From assembly GCA_016190245.1 (NCBI GenBank), contig JACPQY010000072.1:1-29838 (forward strand): a stretch of DNA of 29,838 nucleotides, written 5' to 3'. Source of the stretch: Nitrospirota bacterium (GTDB lineage Bacteria; JACPQY01). Both the position numbers and the translations under genes were made by a program. The notes under the pieces are model-generated. The model had not been told where the DNA came from and made no database searches. It saw only the letters and a list, made by a program, of their open reading frames with translations. Within the stretch, counting starts at the first letter, position 1. Each line of letters opens with the position of its first letter. Shown here piece by piece: positions 8,857-19,957 of the stretch.

Positions 8857-10641
8857 CTACGGGCGATACAGCACGTACACCTCGCCGGCACGAGCGCGGC
8901 CGACGGAGACCGTGATGAGCCAGCGGCGTCCCTCGCGGTCCATCGCGTGCTCGGCGAGAAGATCCTCCGCCCGAATCGGGATGCCGCGGTCGTCCCGACC
9001 GCTGGCGTTGGCGTAGCCCTTGAAGTTGATGCGCACGTCCCCGGCAGGTGGCGTCGTCTCGGCAGCCACGATTTCGAGGGTCTGGGAGCGCTCCACTTCA
9101 AGGGTCTCGCCCGGTTCGAGCCAAGTTCGCTGACCGTCCGCAAGGACGAGCAGCCGCTCCAGCCGCGGCCGCGTGAGATGGAGGAACCACGCGGCGGCCT
9201 CCCGCCCGGCCTGCGTGGCCGAAATCTTGTACGTCTCACCACGGCGGTCCACCGACCACCGCGGCAGGAGATCCGTGGCGGTGTTCACGGCATAGGCGAG
9301 GTCGTGGCCCAGGTTCTCCCTCCGCTGGTCCGGCGGGACGAAACCCAGGAGGTTCACCTTGAACGGGCCTTCTTTGCCGGAGGCGAGCTCCAGCAGGGTG
9401 AGGGTCTCCCCCAACGGGACATCGAGGACGGCATTGGGCCGCAGCCACTGGTCCCTCTCGCCGTGACGGACGCGCAGGGAAATCCCCTCCGTGGGCTCGG
9501 ATCGCTCGGCCGCCACCTCGATGCGCACCTCGCCGCAGGGGAGGCTGTCTTTGCGGGCGACGACCGACGTGGCGTGGTCAATCACGATCGGCCGGTGCAT
9601 GTCGTTGTCGCCCCCGAGCCCCACCACGTCCGCAGAGAGCCCGCGTTCATAGTTCGACTGGACGTGCTCGACCTCGATCTCGGACCCCGGCGGCACGGCG
9701 ATGGTCTCGCGGTCCCGCGCCACGACAGGTCGGCCCTGTCCCACGCGGATCACCATGAACTCCAGGCGCGGGGGATCGAAGCGCACGGGGGGCAGATCCG
9801 GCACCACGTCGAACAGCTTGAAGAACTCATTGATCACCGTGGACTGGTAGCGCAGCCGGGCCGAGTGAGGCTGGATGCTCTTGCTGGTCTCCACGCCGAA
9901 GGCAGGGATCCCGACCTTCGTCACCGCAAAGAACGTGGCCGAGAGGCGCTGTTCGGGGTGGGGCGAGTCCGGGTCTCCCGTGCGGGTGTTCTTCACGTGG
10001 AAATGATGCCGCGCCTCCGTGATCTCCGCGTTGGCCCCCGCCGCCGCCTGCTCCGCGATGTCGCGCAGCGGGATGATCTTCTTCTCCTCGGTTTCGTGGG
10101 TCTCGGCATCGATGATGATGCTTTGACCCCACCGCTTCGGGCTGACCTCGTCGTTCATCGCCTCGGGCGAGTAGAAGCCGGATCCGTCGTGAAGATTGAG
10201 CAGGAGCTGACTTTCGCGCATGAGGGACTGGAGGACCTGGACCACTCTCTCCTCGTAGATGTTGTCCCTTGCGGCTTTGTTGAACTGCCGATTCATGTCC
10301 GCGTTGATGGCCCGGGTGTTCTGCATGATCGTCTTGAAGTTGGCGCGAGGGATGACGATGAGGTTCCCCCGCTTGAGCGTGAGGTCCACATAGAGGTCGG
10401 CGGTGAGATAGCCGCCCGGCTCGTCGCCCTGGATTCCACCGATCATCATGATCGTGTGGCCGGGCTCACGGCCGAAGATCTTGTAGACGTCGAGCTGGTA
10501 GTCCGTGTTCTCGAAGTAGGTGAGGCGCTGCGTGTCCGCGCGAGAGGGAAAGGGATGGGCAAGAGCCAGGAGGAGAACCGAGAGGAGCAGGGGTGCGAGG
10601 CGCGGCCGGTCGGGCGGGCGCGGCCGCGTTGCGGGGGTCAT
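8857..10641 (-). CDS. M99-family zinc carboxypeptidase, Csd4/Pgp1-like peptidoglycan hydrolase
   Basis: A 594-aa exported protein. The signal peptide (about residues 14-35, ending PSRADT) is followed by a carboxypeptidase domain with GGIQGDEPGGY (Q71, E74) and LNLHDGSGFY (H151). This matches the unusual Gln-Glu-His zinc site described for Helicobacter pylori Csd4, including the roughly 80-residue spacing to the His. Csd4/Pgp1 trims tripeptide to dipeptide stems and gives cells their helical shape. The C-terminal half (about 300-594) contains several beta-rich repeats with Arg/Glu-rich strands, probably accessory domains. ATG 10641 fits the signal peptide. ATG 10707 would add residues coded by a heptamer repeat and is less likely. 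The gene follows the Csd6-like gene on the same strand, and the pairing supports the role. It converges on the SCO gene with a 16-bp gap. Confidence 0.85.
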   Translation of the reverse strand: MTPATRPRPPDRPRLAPLLLSVLLLALAHPFPSRADTQRLTYFENTDYQLDVYKIFGREPGHTIMMIGGIQGDEPGGYLTADLYVDLTLKRGNLIVIPRANFKTIMQNTRAINADMNRQFNKAARDNIYEERVVQVLQSLMRESQLLLNLHDGSGFYSPEAMNDEVSPKRWGQSIIIDAETHETEEKKIIPLRDIAEQAAAGANAEITEARHHFHVKNTRTGDPDSPHPEQRLSATFFAVTKVGIPAFGVETSKSIQPHSARLRYQSTVINEFFKLFDVVPDLPPVRFDPPRLEFMVIRVGQGRPVVARDRETIAVPPGSEIEVEHVQSNYERGLSADVVGLGGDNDMHRPIVIDHATSVVARKDSLPCGEVRIEVAAERSEPTEGISLRVRHGERDQWLRPNAVLDVPLGETLTLLELASGKEGPFKVNLLGFVPPDQRRENLGHDLAYAVNTATDLLPRWSVDRRGETYKISATQAGREAAAWFLHLTRPRLERLLVLADGQRTWLEPGETLEVERSQTLEIVAAETTPPAGDVRINFKGYANASGRDDRGIPIRAEDLLAEHAMDREGRRWLITVSVGRARAGEVYVLYRP

Positions 10642-10662
10642 CCCCCCGGCTGGCGGAGACTT

Positions 10663-10704
10663 GAGATCTGAGATCTGAGATTGGAAATCTGAGATTTGAG
10701 ATTC
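10663..10704. repeat. Tandem heptamer repeat (six GAGATCT-like units)
   Basis: Six consecutive 7-bp units: GAGATCT, GAGATCT, GAGATTG, GAAATCT, GAGATTT, GAGATTC. They sit in the 80-base gap between the Csd6-like and Csd4-like genes. The AT-rich composition stands out from the surroundings. Heptamer tandem repeats of this sort are known as non-coding elements in some bacterial lineages. It could also affect the start or coupling of the downstream gene. Confidence 0.75.
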
Positions 10705-10721
10705 CATATGAGGTGGGGGGG

Positions 10722-12446
10722 TCATTCCGGCTCCAGCAACCCGGCCCCCACGAGCGGGAACGGCTCGACCGGCCGGTAGGGCATCCACGATTCGGTCAGG
10801 ATCCGGTACTCCGCCCCTTCCTTCGTCAAGTAGATCCGTTTCACGCCCACGTCCCTCAGATCGTCCGACTGGTAGTTCTGCACGTATTGTGCCACGACGA
10901 TCTCCTGTGCGCCTAGGGGGGGAGGTTCCGCGTACCGCAGGAGTTTGAGTTCCTCCATGCCGATGCGCACATCGGACTTGGCTTCGAAGATGCGGGACTT
11001 GTACGCGCGCCACTGCGCCTTGTTGCGCCCGAGGGCTTGGAACCGATCGGAGTAAAACGCCATGTAGGCATTGAGATCTCCCTTCTCCCAGGCCTTTGCC
11101 CAGCCCTCGACCGTGCGGCGCAGTTGGGCGCGGTCGCGCAGGCTTTTCTCTCGTCCCGCGAAGGTGAGGCGGTCAGTCACGGCGATGGGTGTCATGTGGA
11201 TGCTCAGGAACTGGGCGAGGGCGGAAAGTGTGCTGTTGCGCACCACCACACAGCCTCGCGAATTGAAGGGCGGCCGCTCTTCCTCCTTCCGGTCCACCCC
11301 GTGCAGCCAGATCCCGCCGCCGGACTTGCCCAGCCAGGTATCGATCTCGTTGGGGTAGTTCATCGGGAAGGCCATGGCTCCGAAGCGAGGCTCGAGCCGC
11401 TCGCCCGGGATGCGGGTGGTGAAGAAGTAAATGCCCTCGGGCGTTCGCTCGTCGCCCCGCGTCCGTTTGTCCCCGCTCATCCGGCCGGTGGTGGTTGGGT
11501 ATTCGGCGACGCGTTCGATCTCGCCGGAGAGGTGTTGTTTGTAAAGGAAGAGCCGCTGGGTGGATTTCTCCACGACCAGCGCGTAGGGCTGGCTCCCGCC
11601 GATGTCCACCAGGACGTTGGGGTAGTTGATCTTCTCACGCTCCTCGCGGAGGCGGGCGACGGCCCCGCGGATCTCATCGGCCTCGGTCTGGAGGGTGCGG
11701 TCGGAGGGGAAGGCGGGGAGGGCCCGTTCGTAGGCATCCAGGGCCTGCTCCAGCCGGCCGGCGGTTTTATAGGCGCGCGCGAGAAGGACGAGAGCCGGCG
11801 ACAGTCGGGGGTCCTTCGCAAGAGCGACCTCGAGGTGACCGATCGCCCGCTCGGTCTGGCCTCGCTCCAGGCTGATCTGGCCGAGGAGCGTGTAGACCTG
11901 GGGTTCGAGCGAGCGGCGGCTTCGCAGGATGCCGAGGTGCCGTTCGGCCGAGTCGTGGTCGTGGCGCTGGATGAGGAGTTGGGCAAGCCGCAGGCGGAGC
12001 GTATCGATCGATTCGTCGAGCTGAAGGGCGGTGGTGTATTCGACGATGGCCTGGCCTTCCCGCCCCGCGCTCTCAAGTCGGGTCCCGCGCTCGATGAAGC
12101 GGTCAGCCCCGAGATCGGGCCGGCCGCGCGCGGCGGCCTTGAACTGGGCGACGGCGTCGTTCCAGCGTCCCTCGGCCCTGAGGAGGAGGCCGGAGTAGTA
12201 TTGGAAGAGCGGCTGGGCGGGCTGGGATTCGATGAGGGCCTTGAGGAGGGCGTGTTTCTCCTGCGGGAGGGTGCCCGCCTCGAGGAGTTCGCCCAGAAGA
12301 TGCACGGCTTGGCGCAGGTGCTCATCCGCCTGCTCGATTTCGGCGGAGGGTGCGGCCGCGGGCGCGGCGAGTGCCGCGTGAGGGGAGGCAAGGAATGGCA
12401 CGAGCAGCCATCCCCAAGTCCAGCGGAAGTTCAGTCCCTTGAACAT
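10722..12446 (-). CDS. TPR-containing L,D-transpeptidase-fold enzyme, Csd6/Pgp2-like L,D-carboxypeptidase
   Basis: A 574-aa exported protein. It has a signal peptide (residues 1-28, ending HAALA), TPR-like helical repeats (about 80-250), a YkuD catalytic domain (about 275-430) with H382 in IWLHGVDR and nucleophile C399 in NSRGCVVV, and a C-terminal NTF2-like domain (about 440-560, WAKAWEKGDLNAYMAFYS). YkuD plus NTF2 is the architecture of Csd6 (Helicobacter), Pgp2 (Campylobacter) and Bd1075 (Bdellovibrio), L,D-carboxypeptidases that cut tetrapeptide to tripeptide stems and set cell curvature. The product is the substrate of the adjacent Csd4-like enzyme. The N-terminal TPR domain is an addition and may recruit partners. 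ATG 12446 was chosen for the signal peptide. An exchange activity (true L,D-transpeptidase) cannot be excluded. Confidence 0.87.
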   Translation of the reverse strand: MFKGLNFRWTWGWLLVPFLASPHAALAAPAAAPSAEIEQADEHLRQAVHLLGELLEAGTLPQEKHALLKALIESQPAQPLFQYYSGLLLRAEGRWNDAVAQFKAAARGRPDLGADRFIERGTRLESAGREGQAIVEYTTALQLDESIDTLRLRLAQLLIQRHDHDSAERHLGILRSRRSLEPQVYTLLGQISLERGQTERAIGHLEVALAKDPRLSPALVLLARAYKTAGRLEQALDAYERALPAFPSDRTLQTEADEIRGAVARLREEREKINYPNVLVDIGGSQPYALVVEKSTQRLFLYKQHLSGEIERVAEYPTTTGRMSGDKRTRGDERTPEGIYFFTTRIPGERLEPRFGAMAFPMNYPNEIDTWLGKSGGGIWLHGVDRKEEERPPFNSRGCVVVRNSTLSALAQFLSIHMTPIAVTDRLTFAGREKSLRDRAQLRRTVEGWAKAWEKGDLNAYMAFYSDRFQALGRNKAQWRAYKSRIFEAKSDVRIGMEELKLLRYAEPPPLGAQEIVVAQYVQNYQSDDLRDVGVKRIYLTKEGAEYRILTESWMPYRPVEPFPLVGAGLLEPE

Positions 12447-12475
12447 CGGCAGGCGTCCTGTTGCAAGGCGGCGGT

Positions 12476-12505
12476 ATTTTCCTCGGATTGCCCCCCGGTT
12501 GTCAA
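12476..12505 (-). promoter_or_regulatory. Promoter for the csd6/csd4-like genes
   Basis: On the minus strand TTGACA (12505-12500) is followed by an 18-bp spacer and GAAAAT (12481-12476), predicting a start near 12469, about 23 bases before the ATG. It lies back to back with the FTR1 promoter in a 177-bp divergent region. Confidence 0.5.
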
Positions 12506-12541
12506 CCCGCGCGAGTTCTTGCCGTGGAGGAGGCGCGCCAC

Positions 12542-12569
12542 TTGACACTTTGCGGAACTCCTGTATCCT
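12542..12569 (+). promoter_or_regulatory. Sigma70-type promoter of the FTR1 permease gene
   Basis: TTGACA (12542-12547), 16 bp, TATCCT (12564-12569), with a predicted start near 12576. The Fur-box-like sequence at 12582-12600 lies immediately downstream, where a bound repressor would block initiation or escape. Confidence 0.55.
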
Positions 12570-12581
12570 GACCGCGTAAAT

Positions 12582-12600
12582 GATAATGAAAGTCAATATC
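12582..12600. promoter_or_regulatory. Fur-box-like operator upstream of FTR1
   Basis: The 19 bases from 12582 match GATAATGATAATCATTATC at 16 positions, with TGATA and TATCA outer arms (12581-12601). It lies between the predicted transcription start and the AAGGGGG ribosome-binding site (12611-12617). Iron repression by Fur is the expected mode. Confidence 0.7.
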
Positions 12601-12623
12601 ATCTAGGACCAAGGGGGTCCACA

Positions 12624-13442
12624 ATGTTCGAGTCCTTCGTGATCACGCTTCGGGAAGGTATGGAGGCATTTCTGATCGTCGCCATCAGCGTCGGCTACCT
12701 GCGCAAGACGGGCCGCGGGTCGCTCGTCCGGGCCGTCGGCTGGGGTGCGGTCGCCTCCGTTCTGGCGAGCGTCGGGGCGGGGGTTCTCCTCGAACGGGCC
12801 TTGAATCAGCCGCTGTGGGAGGGTGTTCTCGCCGTGGCGGCCGCGCTGCTGGTGGGCACCATGACCGTCCACCTGGCTGTGGCCGCGCGGACGCTCAAGA
12901 AGCGAGTGGAGAGCCGATTGGAGGCGGCCACGCGCAAGCCCGGCCCTGCCGCCTACGCGGGCCTTTTCCTCTTCACCGTGCTGATGGTCACGCGCGAGGG
13001 CATGGAGACGGCGCTCCTGCTCGGCAGTTTGCTGGTTCAGGAAGGCTCCACTTCGGTGCTGGCGGGCGCTCTTCTCGGTCTCTTCGCGGCGGCGGGGCTC
13101 GCGTGGCTCTGGAGTCGATATGGTCATCGCGTGAACCTGGCGCACTTCTTCCAGGTCACCGCGGTCTTCTTGTTCGTTTTTCTCGTCCAGCTTCTGATCT
13201 ACGGCTTCCACGAGATCACGGAGGCGGGCGTCCTTCCGATCGAAAGGACGCTGAACGATCGGCTCCATTGGGCCACCGAGCCGTTCGGCCCCGAGGGGCT
13301 CTACGGGCAGTGGCTGACCTACGCGATGGTGATGCTTCCGCTGGCTTGGCTGGCGTGGGCGTCGCTGCGCGACCGGATGCTGCCCAAGGCGATCGCCGCG
13401 TCGGGGGGACACAGGCCGGGGTTCTCCGACCGAAAAGGTTGA
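12624..13442 (+). CDS. FTR1-family iron permease
   Basis: A 272-aa polytopic inner-membrane protein with two REGME motifs, R10-E14 in TM1 and R124-E128 in TM4, the REXXE iron-transport signatures of the FTR1/EfeU family. About seven hydrophobic segments fit the family. FTR1 permeases import iron, in several systems as Fe(III) formed by an oxidase or delivered by periplasmic partners. ATG 12624 is preceded by AAGGGGG six bases upstream. The Fur-box-like site before the gene agrees with iron import. No EfeO, EfeB, multicopper oxidase or P19 partner gene is adjacent. The next genes are instead a porin, a cytochrome-porin and a flavin protein, an unusual setting. Confidence 0.9.
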   Translation: MFESFVITLREGMEAFLIVAISVGYLRKTGRGSLVRAVGWGAVASVLASVGAGVLLERALNQPLWEGVLAVAAALLVGTMTVHLAVAARTLKKRVESRLEAATRKPGPAAYAGLFLFTVLMVTREGMETALLLGSLLVQEGSTSVLAGALLGLFAAAGLAWLWSRYGHRVNLAHFFQVTAVFLFVFLVQLLIYGFHEITEAGVLPIERTLNDRLHWATEPFGPEGLYGQWLTYAMVMLPLAWLAWASLRDRMLPKAIAASGGHRPGFSDRKG

Positions 13443-13498
13443 CGGCCGTCATGGTCTTCCCCGTGGGAGCCCGTATCATCTCGGCCTTCCGAACAGAT

Positions 13499-13517
13499 GA
13501 TATTGAGAATCATTAGC
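13499..13517. promoter_or_regulatory. Fur-box-like operator upstream of the acidic porin
   Basis: The 19 bases from 13499 match the Fur consensus at 16 positions, including the central AATCATTA block. It lies in the 135-bp gap between FTR1 and the porin, downstream of TATCAT (13474-13479), a possible -10 without a clear -35. The porin and later genes may thus have a second iron-controlled promoter. Confidence 0.65.
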
Positions 13518-13577
13518 AACAAGGCGGACGGGAATAAGCCCCGCCGGGAAGGACCAATCAAAGGAAGGGAGAGTCCA

Positions 13578-14981
13578 ATGAAGACACGGTTGGCAAAGAC
13601 TTGGTGGGCGCTCGGCGCTGCGGCGGGCGCGCTTTTGGCCGCGGACGTCTCGCGGGCTTCCGATGTGAAAATCGGCGGCTACGGCTCGTTCCGGTGGAAT
13701 ACCACTGCGGGGAGCGAAGACGTCAAGGGCGTCCCGGAAGAACTCAACACGTTCACGCTCCGGCGGTTCGTTCTCACAACGGACGCGCAGCCGGTGCCCC
13801 GATTCCGGTCGTACCTCGAATTCGAACTGGAGCGGTTCCGGCTCATCGAGCTCAAGAAGAAGCTCGAGGTGGGGAGCGCCGATGAGCTCGAGGCGGAACT
13901 GGAGATCGAGAACACCTCCGGCTCCGAGATCAGCCTGGAACAGGTGTGGGGACAGGTGGATCTAGTGGAGCAGGAACTGGGCTTGCGCTTCGGCGGCATT
14001 CTCGTGCCGCTGGGCCGGTACAACATCCGGCACGACGACAACCAGTGGGACATTCCCAAGAGGCCGCTCGTGGATCGCGGCGACGGCGAGCTCGGGATCC
14101 GGTCCGTTCTCCCCTCCAAGGCGGCGTGGGACGAACTGGGCGTGGGTCTCGTGGGGACCTACGACACGTTCGGCTTCGAGGCCTACTACATGAACGGGCC
14201 GACGCTCGATTTCGAGTACGAGTCGGAGTTCGAGAAGGAGTTCACCGCGGACCACAAGGCAGTGGACGTGGAGACGAAGATCGCCACCCGGCTCATGACG
14301 GGGACGTTCGATGTGGACCCGAAGGGGGCGCTCAAGTTCGGGGGCGCGCGCGGGTACGTGTGGCCCGGAGTCGGATCCGAACTGGCTCTCTCGGCCTTCG
14401 GCGGCCGATACACGCCGGAGGAGTTCCCGACTCAGCAGTCGCTCTATTCAGTCGCCGCGGACGGCCTGGGGACGCTCGGCATCCTCGAGGTGGAGGGCGA
14501 AGTGGCCTATTCATCGTTCGGGGACGTCGGGAAGGTCAAGAATGCCGTCGGCATGGAGGCGGAGGCCATGGCGATGCAGACGGTGGACGCCCAGGGGAAT
14601 ATCACCAACATCGACCCCAAGGTGGACGCTCATCCCGACTTGGTGCTCGTGGTCGAGGGCCCGAACCTCCCGGAGAAGTCCTACGGGGGCTGGGTCGAGT
14701 TCCGGTGGCCGATCCCCGTCAACGTATGGGGCGACTCCACCAAGCTCATCCCGCTCGCACGGGTGGAACAAGTCGCCTACCAGAACTGGGACGGCAACGA
14801 CAAGGATGATCGCTCGGCCTTCCGGCTCACTCCGGGGATCGCGCTCCGGCCTTCGCCGCTGGTGACCTTCTCGGCGGTCTACCAACTCACCCAGATGAAC
14901 GATTTCCCCGGAGCGGCGAAAGGGACGACCGAGGACGCCGCGGTGCACTCCGTCCTCGTGGGCGGGGCGTGGGGGTTCTAG
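13578..14981 (+). CDS. Outer-membrane beta-barrel porin with acidic segments
   Basis: A 467-aa protein with a signal peptide (MKTRLAKTWW..., cleavage near residue 27, SRA-SD) followed by alternating beta strands and a C-terminal ...VLVGGAWGF ending in Phe, the outer-membrane insertion signature. GGILVPLGRYNIRHDD and the overall layout resemble phosphate-selective-porin/OprP-like barrels. Two Glu-rich segments (about residues 82-112 and 213-235) are unusual and could bind cations such as Fe2+/Fe3+; that is inference. The start has AAGGAAGGGAGAG just upstream. The 81 bases of in-frame sequence before it include the Fur-box-like site, so the longer frame is rejected. It is probably the outer-membrane entry point of the iron system. 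Confidence 0.8.
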   Translation: MKTRLAKTWWALGAAAGALLAADVSRASDVKIGGYGSFRWNTTAGSEDVKGVPEELNTFTLRRFVLTTDAQPVPRFRSYLEFELERFRLIELKKKLEVGSADELEAELEIENTSGSEISLEQVWGQVDLVEQELGLRFGGILVPLGRYNIRHDDNQWDIPKRPLVDRGDGELGIRSVLPSKAAWDELGVGLVGTYDTFGFEAYYMNGPTLDFEYESEFEKEFTADHKAVDVETKIATRLMTGTFDVDPKGALKFGGARGYVWPGVGSELALSAFGGRYTPEEFPTQQSLYSVAADGLGTLGILEVEGEVAYSSFGDVGKVKNAVGMEAEAMAMQTVDAQGNITNIDPKVDAHPDLVLVVEGPNLPEKSYGGWVEFRWPIPVNVWGDSTKLIPLARVEQVAYQNWDGNDKDDRSAFRLTPGIALRPSPLVTFSAVYQLTQMNDFPGAAKGTTEDAAVHSVLVGGAWGF

Positions 14982-14996
14982 TCTGAGAGGTTCTGG

Positions 14997-15024
14997 GGGG
15001 GGATCGGTCCGAGTCGGTCCCCCC
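14997..15024 (+). terminator. Terminator-like hairpin after the porin gene
   Basis: GGGGGGA (14997-15003) pairs with TCCCCCC (15018-15024) around a 14-base loop. No U-tract follows, so it may attenuate or stabilise the mRNA end rather than terminate fully. A second stem (AAC-C-GGGTC with GACCCGTT, about 15065-15085) follows before the next gene. Confidence 0.4.
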
Positions 15025-15104
15025 GAGGGATGGGATCATGTTGGGGAGAGCTGTTGATGTGCCGAACCGGGTCGCCGGACCCGTTGCTTGTCGCTCTTTC
15101 CATC

Positions 15105-15142
15105 GCTACTGTACAGTGGCCGGCCGTCCAATGTACAGTAGC
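15105..15142. promoter_or_regulatory. 11-bp perfect inverted repeat across the start codon of the cytochrome-porin gene
   Basis: GCTACTGTACA (15105-15115) and TGTACAGTAGC (15132-15142) are exact reverse complements separated by 16 bases that contain GGCCGGCC. The ATG at 15131 lies next to the right arm. It can be read as an operator for a dimeric repressor or as an mRNA hairpin that hides the start. Because TGTACA is itself palindromic, it is also a direct repeat of TGTACAGT at a 22-bp period. Confidence 0.55.
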
Positions 15143-16459
15143 CGGGTCGCGGGCCTGCTGCTCGTCGCCTTGTTCATCGGTCTGCGGCCCGGCCTCGCCT
15201 CGGCCGTGCCCAGCTTCTCGCGGCAGACGGATCGCTCATGCAGCTCCTGTCATGTCATCTGGCCGGGGCAACTGCGGAAGGCGGGACGGGTCTTCAAGTT
15301 CGCCCAGTACGGGGATGCGGCGCCCGAATACCCTGGCGGGGAGGTGAAGGGGGACCGGCTGAGTCTTCTCCGGGTCTTCCCCCTTTCCGCGCGCTTTGCG
15401 GCCGCGCCCTACGCGAGCGGGCCGGGCGAACCGGCGGGGTCGAACTCGCAGATCGATCGTCTGTCAGTCTTTCTTTCCGGGAGAGTGGCCGACGGCGTCG
15501 GCGCGCACTCGGAGCTTTCGTATGAGGGGCAGTTGGTGGTCCCTGCCGCGCGGCTCGCCCTCAGGGGGCCTTCCTCGGCCAACTACGCGAGTGGTCTGGT
15601 TGTGGGTCGGATGGAGCCCGGCGGCGCGGATCCGTTCAATACCATCCGCCACAATGCGCTGTTGATGCGGTGGATCACTCCGGCGCTGAGCGAGGGGGAG
15701 CTCCCGCTGGTGTCAACCCGGAACTTCGGCGCGGTGGCCCAGGTGTACCTTTTCGACGAGATCTACCTTGCTGCCGGTCCCTTCCGCGGCAGTTCCGCCT
15801 GGGCGACGGCCGACCAGGGATTGGATCTCTTCGCTCGGGGTGCCGTGGACCACCTATTGGACTGGGGGGACGACGCGAGTGTGATGCTCGGGACCTTCGT
15901 CTACACCGGGAAGGAACGCGATCGCACCATGCCTGGAGCGTCGGACGCCGGCGCGGAAATCCCGTTGACGTACGACACCTCGGTTCGACGCTGGGGACTG
16001 GATGCTCAATTCCAGTATTTTTCGGGAAAGCATGGGGCCCAGTTGACGGCCGTGATGGTGCAGGGGCGCGATGGAAAGGCCGGGGGTGCGGCGCCTGCGG
16101 CCTACACGGGTTTCGTTCTGGACGCGCTCTATGTTTCGGGCTGGGAGCATGGGATTCTGCTGCGGTGGGATTCCATCTACACACGGCCGGACATCGCGAG
16201 GGGGAGAAAGACTCTGGGTTTCGGCCCGGTGTTCTTCCTCTCAGAGAATGTCCGGCTGGGCGTGGAATGGCGGCAGCAGATTCGCACTGGCCGCGCGGGC
16301 GGCGAGCCGATCCCCGAAGTCCCGCATCAGCATGCTCCTGTTCGACGTGTTTCCCAGGCCGCGAAGGCCCCAACGGGGGACGTGAGCTTGGCGCCGGAGA
16401 GTGCGGGCGGGAGCCGCGGGAAGACCGGTCTTTCCTTCGTCATTGATGTGGCGTTTTGA
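15131..16459 (+). CDS. Monoheme cytochrome c-porin fusion, Cyc2-like
   Basis: A 442-aa protein. The signal peptide (residues 1-25, ASA cleavage) is followed at once by a single heme-binding site CSSCH (37-41) in the setting VPSFSRQTDRSCSSCH, then RKAGRVFKFAQYGD, and about 380 residues of beta-barrel sequence ending GLSFVIDVAF. A short N-terminal heme segment with a (S/A)xFxRQT-CxxCH-GRxFK pattern ahead of a barrel is the layout of Cyc2, the outer-membrane Fe(II) oxidase of iron oxidisers. Many proteins of this wider class have unknown roles. ATG 15131 suits the signal peptide but has no clear ribosome-binding site. ATG 15038, with GAGGG upstream, would add 31 residues before it. No ccm genes are in the window. 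Fur-linked context favours iron metabolism, as assimilation or as respiration. Confidence 0.72.
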   Translation: MYSSRVAGLLLVALFIGLRPGLASAVPSFSRQTDRSCSSCHVIWPGQLRKAGRVFKFAQYGDAAPEYPGGEVKGDRLSLLRVFPLSARFAAAPYASGPGEPAGSNSQIDRLSVFLSGRVADGVGAHSELSYEGQLVVPAARLALRGPSSANYASGLVVGRMEPGGADPFNTIRHNALLMRWITPALSEGELPLVSTRNFGAVAQVYLFDEIYLAAGPFRGSSAWATADQGLDLFARGAVDHLLDWGDDASVMLGTFVYTGKERDRTMPGASDAGAEIPLTYDTSVRRWGLDAQFQYFSGKHGAQLTAVMVQGRDGKAGGAAPAAYTGFVLDALYVSGWEHGILLRWDSIYTRPDIARGRKTLGFGPVFFLSENVRLGVEWRQQIRTGRAGGEPIPEVPHQHAPVRRVSQAAKAPTGDVSLAPESAGGSRGKTGLSFVIDVAF

Positions 16460-17750
16460 CGTGGGCGTGCGGACGCTGACGCCTTTTCGTATACTGGAAG
16501 GCACGCCACCGGTGCTCTGCATCTCGCTCTGTTGCCTCGTCCTGTTCGGGCAGGTTTGGACTGCCCGGGGCTATGAGGTCCCTTCCGGGTCGCTGGCGCC
16601 GGTCTTTCCTGAGGCGAAAACGATTTCGAAGATCGAGGTCCGGTTCTCCGATGAGAGCTACGAGGCATGGCTCAGAGCGCTGCCCAAGAAGCCTTCGATC
16701 GAGGAGCGTGTGTTCGAGGGCTACGAGTTTCGGAAGGCCGCCGAGTCGGGGGACGGCTCCACGGTGGGCTATGCCTTTTTTGTGGACGAGATCGGGAAGG
16801 ATCGGCCGATCACATTCCTCGTCTCCGTTGCGCTGCCCGGCGAGGTGAGGGCCCTGGAGGTGGTGCACTACCGGGAGACGCGCGGCGGCGAGATCCGCGC
16901 GAAGTCGTTTCTCAAGCAGTACCGTGGCCGAACGCTGGCGGATTCGTTCGGAGATGTGAAGGTCGTCCGCGGGGCGACGCTCTCGGCGTACTCAGCCACG
17001 CGGGCGGTGGTGAAGGCGCTGGCCGTGGTGCGATCGCTCGGGAGTCCGGGCGTCGAGGTGAAGCGGGGGGAGGCGACCAAGTTGGCGTCGAGCCGGTTCC
17101 TTCGCAGGTCGTTCTTTGTGGGAGATGCCGTGCTCACGATGCACGTGGAGTGCGGGGGCCGGGACGCGGCGGCCTGCGCGGTGGTTCTGGATGAGGTGGC
17201 AGGGGAGGCGCGGCGCTGGTTTCGTCGGTTCGAGGAGTGGAGGGAGGGTTGTTTTCACCCGGCCCTGGTGGACTTGGAGCGTCGTGCGCGGTCCTACCGG
17301 GATGCCTCGGGCGGGGCGTTCGACCTCAGGTGGGCCAAGCCGGCCGCCCGGCAGGGCATCGACTTCGGCAGCGTGTACAAGGGTTTCATCCTCGACCGCG
17401 TGGCGGAATTGATGCAAGATGAAGGGATGGGCCGCTTCGAATTGGCCTACGGCGATTCGAGTTTCCTCGTTCGGGGGGGGGGTAGCCGGTTTCTTGCCTG
17501 GGGGCGGGAACTGGAGGTACGGGACGGTAGCCTCTCGGTTTCGGCCGCTTCGGGGGAGTACAGCCGAATCGTGGACGCGCGGGACGGCCGGCCCCTCACC
17601 GGGCGGCGTGTGGCCTATGCCATGCATCCGAGCGCGGAGGTGAGCGATGCGCTCTCGACCGCGTGCCTGTTGACGGGATCGCGGTGTCCCACGGTGGCGG
17701 AGCGCCTGCGCGGCGTGGCGCTGGCCTTCGCCGCGCCCGAGGACTTCTGA
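16446..17750 (+). CDS. FMN-binding domain fused to ApbE-like FMN transferase
   Basis: A 434-aa exported protein (hydrophobic signal or anchor, residues 21-38). Residues about 80-195 resemble an FMN_bind domain: VGYAFFVDEIGKDRPITFLVSVAL and a GATLS motif at 176-180 whose Thr is the expected covalent-FMN acceptor. The residue before GAT is Arg rather than Ser/Thr. Residues about 220-434 match ApbE flavin transferases: SGGAFDLRW, DFGSVYKGFILDRVAELM, RIVDARDGRPL and SDALSTACLLTG. The usual His of the HxxDPxTG segment is Arg. Thus the flavin carrier and the enzyme that attaches FMN appear to be in one chain. Such flavinylated proteins carry electrons in the periplasm. It overlaps the preceding cytochrome gene by 14 bases (translational coupling). 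A G10 run at 17473-17482 lies in the ApbE part. Confidence 0.78.
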   Translation: MWRFDVGVRTLTPFRILEGTPPVLCISLCCLVLFGQVWTARGYEVPSGSLAPVFPEAKTISKIEVRFSDESYEAWLRALPKKPSIEERVFEGYEFRKAAESGDGSTVGYAFFVDEIGKDRPITFLVSVALPGEVRALEVVHYRETRGGEIRAKSFLKQYRGRTLADSFGDVKVVRGATLSAYSATRAVVKALAVVRSLGSPGVEVKRGEATKLASSRFLRRSFFVGDAVLTMHVECGGRDAAACAVVLDEVAGEARRWFRRFEEWREGCFHPALVDLERRARSYRDASGGAFDLRWAKPAARQGIDFGSVYKGFILDRVAELMQDEGMGRFELAYGDSSFLVRGGGSRFLAWGRELEVRDGSLSVSAASGEYSRIVDARDGRPLTGRRVAYAMHPSAEVSDALSTACLLTGSRCPTVAERLRGVALAFAAPEDF

Positions 17751-17751
17751 C

Positions 17752-18219
17752 ATGCTACGGAAGCTCCCCGTTGAGACCAGACTCACCATCAGCCTCTTTC
17801 TTGCGTTCTGCCTCGCAGGCCCGTTCGTGAACGCTCTGTACCACATCCTCAAAGTGGGGGTGGGGCTGGACAGCGGGACGGTTCACTACCAGGGAAACGG
17901 CGACCTTCCGCCCAAGAGTTTTCTCGAAATGGTGGAGACCACCCACTTTCATACGTGGATCCAAGCGGTGGTGATGTTCCTGGCGTCGCTCCTGTTCAGC
18001 CTCACCGGGCAGCTCGGTCCGCGCCGGCGTGGGGGCCTGGTTGTGGCCGGCTACGGTTTCGTCCTCCTCCATCTCATCTCGCCGTTTCTCGCGCGCCTGG
18101 CCGTGCCGGGAGGCACGCTGTTGGTACTGGCCTCGGCTGTGGGCATTACGTTCTGCCTGTGGTTGTACGCCGGCTTCGTATTGAGAGAGATCTGGTCCGC
18201 GCCAGGCCGGTACAACTGA
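17752..18219 (+). CDS. Small four-helix membrane protein of unknown function in the iron/flavin cluster
   Basis: A 155-aa protein with four hydrophobic helices (about 12-31, 64-85, 95-117 and 121-145). Histidines lie within or at the ends of helices (H31, H65, H67, H107), in the segment ETTHFHTWIQAVVM. That could fit heme or quinone binding, but I do not recognise the family and no function is proved. It starts one base after the stop of the FMN/ApbE gene, so it is almost certainly co-translated. The position suggests a membrane partner that passes electrons to or from the flavin protein. The start ATG 17752 is the only reasonable one. Confidence 0.75.
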   Translation: MLRKLPVETRLTISLFLAFCLAGPFVNALYHILKVGVGLDSGTVHYQGNGDLPPKSFLEMVETTHFHTWIQAVVMFLASLLFSLTGQLGPRRRGGLVVAGYGFVLLHLISPFLARLAVPGGTLLVLASAVGITFCLWLYAGFVLREIWSAPGRYN

Positions 18220-18384: not shown

Positions 18385-19227
18385 ATGAAGGTCGTTCGAG
18401 GCATGCAGAGTTCCACTCCCCTGGGACTCCTCGTGGGCGTGGGCGGGATGATGGTAGCCATCGTGCTGGAGATGGGCCACTTGAATCCGGATTTCGGCAC
18501 ACCTTTTCTCAAGATCTCGGCCCTCCTGATCATCTTTGCCGGTGGGTACGGTGCCGTCCTGTTGTCGCTTCCCGCCGCTACGGCCCTCGCGGCTCCGAGG
18601 CTGTTTCTCCTCTCTTTTTCAAGGATAGCCATTGACCGCCAGGAGCTGACGAACACGCTGACCACGTGGGCACAGAAGGCCCGCCGGGGCGGCATTCTTC
18701 AGCTTGAGACCGATCTCGCGGAGGTGGATCACCCGTTCATTCACAAGGGACTCCGGATGATCATTGACGGTGTGGACCCCAAGCTCGTGCGCGAGGTGCT
18801 CGAGAACAACATTGACCGCATGCGACAGCGGCACGCGCTGGGGGCGGAGGTGTACAACCAGTTTGGCGGCTACGCGCCCACCATGGGCGTGGTGGGTGCG
18901 ATCGTGGGTCTCATCGGCGCCCTTTCCGAGGCGGGCGCGGAAGGTTCGGATCCGGCCGAGGTGGTCGGCGCGATCGCCACGGCGTTCATCGCCAGTTTCT
19001 ACGGCGTGGGGATTGCCAACCTGATTCTGCTCCCCATCGCGCGCAAGCTGAAGGCGCGGTCCGATGACGAGATCTTCATGCTCGAGGCCGCCGTGGACGG
19101 ACTCCTCGCGCTTCAGCAGGGCGAGCACCCCACGTACATTCAAGATCGCATGAATTCCTACTTCGCCTTCACGGAGGAGGCGGAGGGCGCGCCCCGGGAA
19201 GTGAGCACCGAGAGCAAGGCGGCATAG
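18385..19227 (+). CDS. motA: Flagellar motor stator protein MotA
   Basis: A 280-aa inner-membrane protein, standard MotA length. Four hydrophobic segments lie at about 10-29, 41-63, 165-182 and 196-218, with a large cytoplasmic loop between the second and third. That loop carries the charged motif (R100-E108, RRGGILQLE) that contacts FliG. The third segment has APTMGVVGAIVGLIGAL, including the conserved proline (P165) near the proton path. It forms the stator with MotB, encoded 25 bases downstream. No other flagellar genes are in the window, but the FapA-type protein at 4026-6092 may be functionally related. Confidence 0.93.
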   Translation: MKVVRGMQSSTPLGLLVGVGGMMVAIVLEMGHLNPDFGTPFLKISALLIIFAGGYGAVLLSLPAATALAAPRLFLLSFSRIAIDRQELTNTLTTWAQKARRGGILQLETDLAEVDHPFIHKGLRMIIDGVDPKLVREVLENNIDRMRQRHALGAEVYNQFGGYAPTMGVVGAIVGLIGALSEAGAEGSDPAEVVGAIATAFIASFYGVGIANLILLPIARKLKARSDDEIFMLEAAVDGLLALQQGEHPTYIQDRMNSYFAFTEEAEGAPREVSTESKAA

Positions 19228-19252
19228 CCGGGCGCTCGGGATGCCGAGCTGA

Positions 19253-19957
19253 ATGGCCAGAAAGAAGAAGGGTGGGCACGATGGGGGCGGTGGCGGTCAC
19301 GATGCCACCGGAGGCTTGCGCTGGCTTCTCACCTATGCCGACCTCATCACGCTCCTCCTCGCGCTCTTTATTTTCCTCTACTCCGCCTCGCAGATGGACA
19401 CGGCGAAGATGGCGAGCTTCCTTCAACAGTGGCACGAGGCCTTCACGATCATCGGAAAGGAGCCCATCCCGTCTCAAACAAACGTCATTCCCGAGCTGAC
19501 CCGCTACAAGACGATCCGCGAGGCGTTCTACGAGCGTTTGAGCGAGGAGCTCAAGAAGGGAGAGATCAAGATCGAGTCGCGTCCCGAGGCGCTCATCCTT
19601 CAGATCTTCAACGAGACGCTCTTTTTCGAGGCGGCCAGCGCGGATTTGCGACCTGAATCGCACCGCGTCCTGAAAAAGATTTCGGAGCTCCTGCGGGGCT
19701 TGTCCAACCAGATCCGAATCGTCGGCCACACGGATCCCGTTCCCATCCGAAGCGAGCGGTATCCCACCAACTGGGAGCTGTCTTCCGCTCGCGCATCGGC
19801 GGTGGGCCGGTACATGATCGATCAGGGAGTGGATCCCTACCGGCTGATGGCGGCGGGCCGGGCCGAGTTCGAGCCGATCGAAGGGCTCCTGGCGGACGAT
19901 CCGCGCAACCGTCGAGTGGAGGTCTGGATCCTGCGCAAGGGGCAAGAGGAGTGGTAG
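19253..19957 (+). CDS. motB: Flagellar motor stator protein MotB
   Basis: A 234-aa protein with a short basic N-terminus (KKKGG), one membrane helix WLLTYADLITLLLALFIFL with the proton-binding D30, and a C-terminal OmpA/Pal peptidoglycan-binding domain (VGHTDPVPI, NWELSSARA, NRRVEVWIL). It anchors the MotA ring to the cell wall. The TYAD motif and the absence of Val after the Asp favour a proton stator, though ion choice is not certain from sequence. After the stop come two compact hairpins (ACGGG-GT-CCCGT 19961-19972; GGCGC-TGT-GCGCC 19974-19986) that may separate it from the next gene. Confidence 0.93.
   Translation: MARKKKGGHDGGGGGHDATGGLRWLLTYADLITLLLALFIFLYSASQMDTAKMASFLQQWHEAFTIIGKEPIPSQTNVIPELTRYKTIREAFYERLSEELKKGEIKIESRPEALILQIFNETLFFEAASADLRPESHRVLKKISELLRGLSNQIRIVGHTDPVPIRSERYPTNWELSSARASAVGRYMIDQGVDPYRLMAAGRAEFEPIEGLLADDPRNRRVEVWILRKGQEEW

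Follow-up and report, generated by a model that had tools for sequence, protein, structure and literature searches.

A porin, FMN-binding protein and four-helix membrane protein unit beside iron permeases and Fur-like sites in a Nitrospirota contig and in other bacterial phyla

Results

Gene order of the cluster

We analysed the window, the whole stretch of 29,838 nucleotides that makes up contig JACPQY010000072.1 of a Nitrospirota bacterium (JACPQY01; assembly GCA_016190245.1), and within it a cluster of five genes for an FTR1-family iron permease, a porin, a cytochrome-porin, a fused flavin mononucleotide (FMN)-binding protein and a small four-helix membrane protein. The contig belongs to a 3.29 Mb metagenome-assembled genome (MAG) that is 85% complete and whose lineage is isolated, with a single same-family relative (G001) in the genome collection. 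An earlier note on this DNA had listed the five genes, and all of them are present on the + strand, the last three overlapping or 1 bp apart. The porin, the FMN-binding protein (with or without ApbE) and the four-helix membrane protein form a conserved unit. The locus comprises the following features:

12542..12569 (+), sigma70-like promoter TTGACA-16-TATCCT, 10 of 12 positions matching; identified by consensus alone
12582..12600 (+), Fur box 1, 16/19, GATAATGAAAGTCAATATC, directly 3′ of the promoter hexamers; the FTR1 ATG follows after 23 bp
12624..13442 (+), FTR1-family iron permease, 272 residues, two REGME motifs; Pfam FTR1
13499..13517 (+), Fur box 2, 16/19, GATATTGAGAATCATTAGC, about 60 bp ahead of the porin ATG
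13578..14981 (+), heme-less porin, a porin barrel in the AlphaFold2 model, of the same family as the porins in the conserved unit
15131..16459 (+), monoheme Cyc2-like cytochrome-porin, AVPSFSRQT-DRS-CSSCH-VIW-PGQL, ending in Phe
16446..17750 (+), fusion of an FMN_bind domain with a truncated ApbE-like domain; Pfam FMN_bind and ApbE
17752..18219 (+), four-helix membrane protein, 155 residues, a new family with E62-x-x-H65-F66-H67

The start of the fusion gene overlaps the stop of the cytochrome-porin gene by 14 nt, and 1 bp separates the fusion gene from the small membrane protein gene; because of this spacing the last three genes are probably co-transcribed. Porin and cytochrome-porin genes are 149 bp apart. 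The porin starts at ATG 13578, which is preceded by the Shine-Dalgarno-like sequence GGAAGGGAG; a start at 13497 is not credible. For the cytochrome-porin, ATG 15131 is the most likely start, with an alternative at 15038. Porin, cytochrome-porin and small membrane protein each gave zero matches to Pfam or NCBIfam models.

Conservation of the unit across phyla

We traced the unit through relatives of the small membrane protein and computed its gene content, its conserved order, the Fur boxes at its loci and its closeness to iron permeases and regulators. The FMN-binding protein is either separate from ApbE or fused to it. The four-helix family occurs in 42 of the 386 genomes of a broad sample (29 of 333 when only those of good quality are counted), and within one phylum, Dadabacteria, it is present in 42 of 57 genomes. 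A scan of the collection yielded 54 loci across many phyla, with carriers among Planctomycetota, Verrucomicrobiota, Latescibacterota, Armatimonadota, Myxococcales, Oligoflexia, Binatota, Dadabacteria, Desulfuromonadales, Methylococcaceae and others.

Fifty-seven loci were scored (the window, L063, L064 and L072-L125). FMN and four-helix genes are both found in 56 of these and share a strand in every case, and a porin gene adjoins the pair at 50 of the scored loci; ApbE is found at 32 and FTR1 at 13. The 37 loci of the broad sample, a few of which share one genome and several of which lie on short contigs, hold the FMN gene in 31 cases, the porin in 21, ApbE in 19 and FeoB in 5. The FMN domain of the Dadabacterial member falls below the Pfam FMN_bind gathering cut-off (18.9 of 22 bits).

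The earlier note had expected a conserved neighbourhood, and this expectation holds for the porin, flavoprotein and inner-membrane protein together with iron permeases. It does not extend to the set of five genes, which we reject as a conserved unit: FTR1 is present at 13 of the 57 scored loci, and regular-expression scans, which are restrictive and from which a divergent motif could escape, found the cytochrome-porin motif beside the unit at none of the other loci. The four-helix gene was not found in G001, the sole same-family genome. In the open-access literature we found no published description of the gene set or of Cyc2 together with FTR1.

Predicted Fur sites and neighbouring regulators

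Both Fur-box-like sites described earlier ahead of the FTR1 and porin genes are confirmed at 16 of 19 positions, compared with 0.00 sites expected in the window from dinucleotide shuffles. The genome-wide scan that had been proposed as a check, performed over 3.29 Mb with at most 3 mismatches, recovers the two sites among 3 matches, against 0 for the reversed control pattern. The third match (G000:C74:7739-7757) lies 18–36 bp upstream of a gene in which a ZIP transporter is fused to a cytochrome c domain (L012:6543-7721, − strand), and metal-uptake genes follow all three genomic boxes. Two Fur-family proteins are encoded in the genome. As predicted sites, Fur boxes near the promoter are present above chance, as for Fur-regulated genes.

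We further scanned the region upstream of the unit at 52 loci, many of which are related and do not represent 52 independent events; the matches recur in several phyla. A Fur box with at most 3 mismatches is found at 9 loci (0.04 expected from shuffles), with at most 4 at 15 (0.25 expected) and with at most 5 at 29 (1.6 expected, maximum 5 in 200 shuffles). Iron regulators are also encoded nearby: Fur genes adjoin FeoB at L174 and L191, an open reading frame with a FUR domain is found at L092, and DtxR-type repressors neighbour the unit at L075 and L077. With Fur boxes above chance in the window, in its genome and at other loci of the unit, the iron regulation originally proposed for the cluster is supported, and the link of the unit to iron is strong.

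Iron permeases and the direction of electron flow

The FTR1 protein of the window scores 103.9 bits against a Pfam cut-off of 25.3 and carries the REGxE motifs TLREGME and VTREGME, which places it in the FTR1 family; it stays under the NCBIfam EfeU equivalog cut-off (130.3 of 255 bits). It is the single FTR1 found in the MAG, and no FeoB was found in this genome. FTR1 adjoins the unit in the window, at L075, and in Dadabacteria and relatives. FeoB, an importer of Fe(II), lies beside the unit in four lineages: L074 (with FeoA), L174, L191 and family f30. Among eight unit-carrying genomes checked, FTR1 was not found in six. Of 25 carriers, 12 encode FTR1 without FeoB, 7 encode FeoB without FTR1, 5 encode the two together and 1 lacks either, a tendency of the two permeases to replace each other (Fisher p 0.011) that is uncorrected for phylogeny and includes several incomplete MAGs. 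Fusions of cytochrome c to FTR1 stand beside the unit at L009:6438-8390 (−) and L075:2498-4519, and such a fusion is found in Dadabacteria. In one Dadabacterial family, a signal-peptide-bearing protein of ~116 residues is encoded between the four-helix gene and FTR1 (L068:7536-7886, L066:6645-6995).

On balance, we lean towards reading the cluster as one local form of an iron-acquisition unit found in many phyla, which would be induced by iron limitation, operate mainly in the reductive direction and end in FTR1 or FeoB. We prefer the reductive direction mainly because FeoB adjoins the unit in four lineages. Electrons could also flow the other way, with the cytochrome-porin (and the FMN protein) oxidising Fe(II) and FTR1 importing Fe(III), in the manner of yeast Fet3-Ftr1. 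Such a flow would suit the presence of FTR1 and a Cyc2-like protein together in the window, as well as the fusion of cytochrome c to FTR1 in Dadabacteria and L075 and to a ZIP permease in the window's own genome. We nevertheless consider it unlikely: the regular-expression scans detected no Cyc2-like gene next to the remaining copies of the unit, the permease linked to the unit in four lineages imports Fe(II), and FTR1 is missing from the genes found in six of the eight carrier genomes.

Structural models of the porin and the four-helix protein

The AlphaFold2 model of the porin adopts a porin barrel fold, with a predicted local distance difference test (pLDDT) score of 79 and a predicted template modelling (pTM) score of 0.81. 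Its best structural matches are OprP/OprO (Z 26), with OmpF-type porins at Z 22–23; in this model the match marks the general porin fold and says nothing on specificity. Keffer et al. (PMC8406198) list OprP/OprO also among the structural homologues of the barrel of Cyc2. At one locus, in a Methylococcaceae MAG (L125:5365-7337), the genes for a cohesin-like protein and for a MauG-like dihaem protein that has a match to dockerin lie between the porin and the FMN gene.

The unit might instead serve a different substrate that gains importance when iron is scarce, such as another metal or an organic chelate of iron or manganese, for which the porin would be specific, and the MauG-like protein at L125 would be compatible with this. 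The neighbouring FTR1, FeoB, Fur and DtxR genes all indicate iron, and we regard a different substrate as the least likely of the explanations considered here.

The four-helix protein is modelled with pLDDT 94 and pTM 0.85, with helices at residues 7-34, 57-83, 90-115 and 121-147 and an extra short helix at 39-47. In an alignment of 37 sequences, E62, H65, F66 and H67 are invariant and H80 and W112 nearly invariant, with Ser in place of H80 in the window and in G071. The positive-inside rule would put E62-H67 close to the periplasmic side of the membrane. We considered an identity as heme b protein and set it aside, as conservation does not support it: next to the invariant H65 and H67, H80 varies and a partner His is not conserved. 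Foldseek returned no relative of the model (best E 0.39), the VIA-align matches were limited to generic helical bundles (Z of about 8), a result that excludes nothing, and a PDB sequence search with the family profile gave nothing useful.

The FMN_bind–ApbE fusion

The fusion scores 23.3 bits for FMN_bind and 36.8 bits for ApbE in Pfam. Its acceptor motif, RGATLS, keeps the acceptor Thr178 (codon 16977-16979) and has Arg in the first position of [S/T]GA[S/T]; other FMN proteins of the unit carry SGAT or TGAT, or A, V or G in the first position, and the acceptor motif is kept in most of them. The ApbE half is without much of the N-terminal lobe, and the equivalent of His257 is Arg (EYSRIVDA in the window, compared with the catalytic motif YSHIIDP). 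In the Vibrio cholerae enzyme, the substitution H257G abolishes transfer (PMC5655446). The motifs of the C-terminal lobe are intact, namely DFGSVYKG (DxGxxxKG) and SDALST (SDxxST, with conserved Asp and Thr). The gene had been described as a fused FMN carrier and flavin transferase; the fusion itself is borne out, while its transferase half is truncated and has no catalytic His, which makes a normal transferase unlikely. As this probably altered half is the only ApbE found in the 85%-complete MAG, flavinylation in the organism is uncertain; the fusion may be active, may be served by another ApbE encoded in the missing 15%, or may function with FMN that is not covalently bound.

The same fusion of FMN_bind to a truncated ApbE is encoded in a second lineage (L176:4236-5405, − strand), again with RGATLS and with Lys for the catalytic His (EYSKIFDP). 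A related porin adjoins it (33% and 32% identity), and a Fur box with 2 mismatches lies upstream of the four-helix gene. The recurrence in this second lineage identifies the truncated fusion as a shared subtype and renders plain decay of the ApbE half less likely, even if the protein could still be inactive.

The Cyc2-like cytochrome-porin

From ATG 15131, the cytochrome-porin comprises 442 residues (a single CXXCH in a protein of at least 365 residues was looked for) with one CSSCH near the N-terminus, ahead of which a signal-peptide-like segment can be read by eye. The published Cyc2 signature consists of AXPXFAR[Q/K][T/Y] before CXXCH and PXL 4 residues after it (PMC8406198). The window protein reads AVPSFSRQT, with one mismatch (A to S), and CSSCH-VIW-PGQL, in which the leucine comes one residue later than in PXL. 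Because the published signature is matched only with these deviations, we use the label Cyc2-like rather than Cyc2. A PDB sequence search with the protein gave nothing useful. Its presence in the operon may be functional or incidental.

Discussion

Relation to known systems

Several described systems share components with the cluster. P19/FTR1 (FtrABCD-type) clusters likewise combine FTR1 with an extracytosolic FMN_bind protein and are implicated in iron assimilation, and the FTR1–FMN_bind association in P19 clusters, as well as ApbE systems with iron reduction, has already been proposed (Meheust et al. 2021, PMC8238504). In contrast, no P19, FtsX/MacB, thioredoxin or FtrD gene was recognised among the five genes of the window (P19 had no match among these and three flanking genes scanned), and the constant partners of the unit are the dedicated porin and the four-helix protein. 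The two systems overlap in genome G058, the one genome of its phylum in the collection, where a four-helix gene lies within an FTR1-FtrD/FtsX/MacB locus (L011:9868-10748 and 14256-15671, − strand) and an adjoining open reading frame resembles its decayed copy. EfeU/FTR1 permeases share the two REGxE motifs and a Pfam FTR1 score far over the cut-off; the window protein differs in staying under the EfeU equivalog cut-off, and no EfeO or EfeB was recognised among the five genes. The Cyc2 iron oxidase (Keffer et al. 2021, PMC8406198) resembles the cytochrome-porin in its single N-terminal CXXCH, near-match motif and long C-terminal region ending in Phe, whereas the window protein has FSR for FAR and PGQL for PXL and is encoded in a Fur-boxed operon with a porin and a flavoprotein, not in an oxidase chain. 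Cyanobacterial porins also carry iron across the outer membrane (PMC11221513), but by passive diffusion under iron-replete conditions, whereas the porin of the window is encoded together with a flavoprotein in an operon that has a Fur box. To judge from the open-access literature, the new element is the presence of porin and four-helix protein as partners.

The PepSY/DUF2271/DUF4198/ApbE flavinylation clusters (PMC8238504) are similarly Fur-repressed, ApbE-linked and thought to reduce iron; the carrier of the unit is instead FMN_bind and its membrane partner a different four-helix family, with no match to PepSY or DUF2271 and, for the window protein, to any Pfam model. In the proposal of Meheust et al. 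(PMC8238504), flavinylation saves iron by offering an alternative to cytochromes. Flavin carriers of the unit might stand in for iron-rich cytochromes in electron disposal under low iron, and iron genes would adjoin the unit through shared regulation only. Fur control is consistent with such iron-sparing respiration; the presence of a dedicated porin gene at almost all loci and the recurrent closeness of FTR1 or FeoB would be unexpected, and we judge it unlikelier still than the oxidative direction discussed above.

Proposed mechanism

Iron uptake in the reductive direction could proceed as follows. Upon iron limitation, Fur would leave its boxes and the unit would be switched on. The dedicated porin would admit iron ions or small iron complexes to the periplasm, where the flavoprotein would receive electrons from the four-helix inner-membrane protein, with the quinol pool as their most likely source, and its FMN would turn Fe(III) into Fe(II) or hold iron reduced. 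The inner-membrane permease would then import the iron, FTR1 in the window and Dadabacteria and FeoB in many other hosts. In the window, the Cyc2-like cytochrome-porin may give electrons a further path at the outer membrane. The path of the electrons and its reductive direction are inferred, as are iron transport through the porin and whatever role the cytochrome-porin has.

Several points weigh against this scheme. The ApbE half of the window is, judged by its motifs, probably catalytically altered. In a second sample of loci, a Fur box with at most 4 mismatches is present in just 2 of 35 (0.04 expected), and other regulators may take the place of Fur there. Yeast FTR1 works with an oxidase, which makes an oxidative direction possible, and the porin could admit a substrate other than iron. 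The four-helix family has no conserved residue pair obviously suited to heme, and electron transfer by this protein, for which no solved relative was found, is a guess.

We put forward more tentatively that the E..HFH protein represents a new class of membrane carrier that passes electrons from quinol to the flavoprotein and is central to a porin-based, siderophore-independent route of reductive iron uptake found in many phyla; the window subtype would keep a degenerate ApbE domain in its flavoprotein, and the Cyc2-like protein would extend the chain to the outer membrane. If reductive uptake by the unit is true, about one tenth of the sampled bacterial genomes encode a unit for iron uptake that seems not to have been described before, together with a dedicated porin and a membrane protein family outside Pfam, and periplasmic reduction of ferric iron feeding FeoB or FTR1, a long-standing question, becomes directly testable. 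It would also explain how surveys based on Pfam FMN_bind could miss the unit, because the Dadabacterial FMN domain scores below the cut-off.

Flanking genes

The genes on either side of the cluster appear unrelated to it. The left flank (window 8857-12602, − strand) encodes an M99 peptidase and an L,D-transpeptidase with tetratricopeptide repeats, and the right flank (window 18385-19957) MotA and a MotB-like gene.

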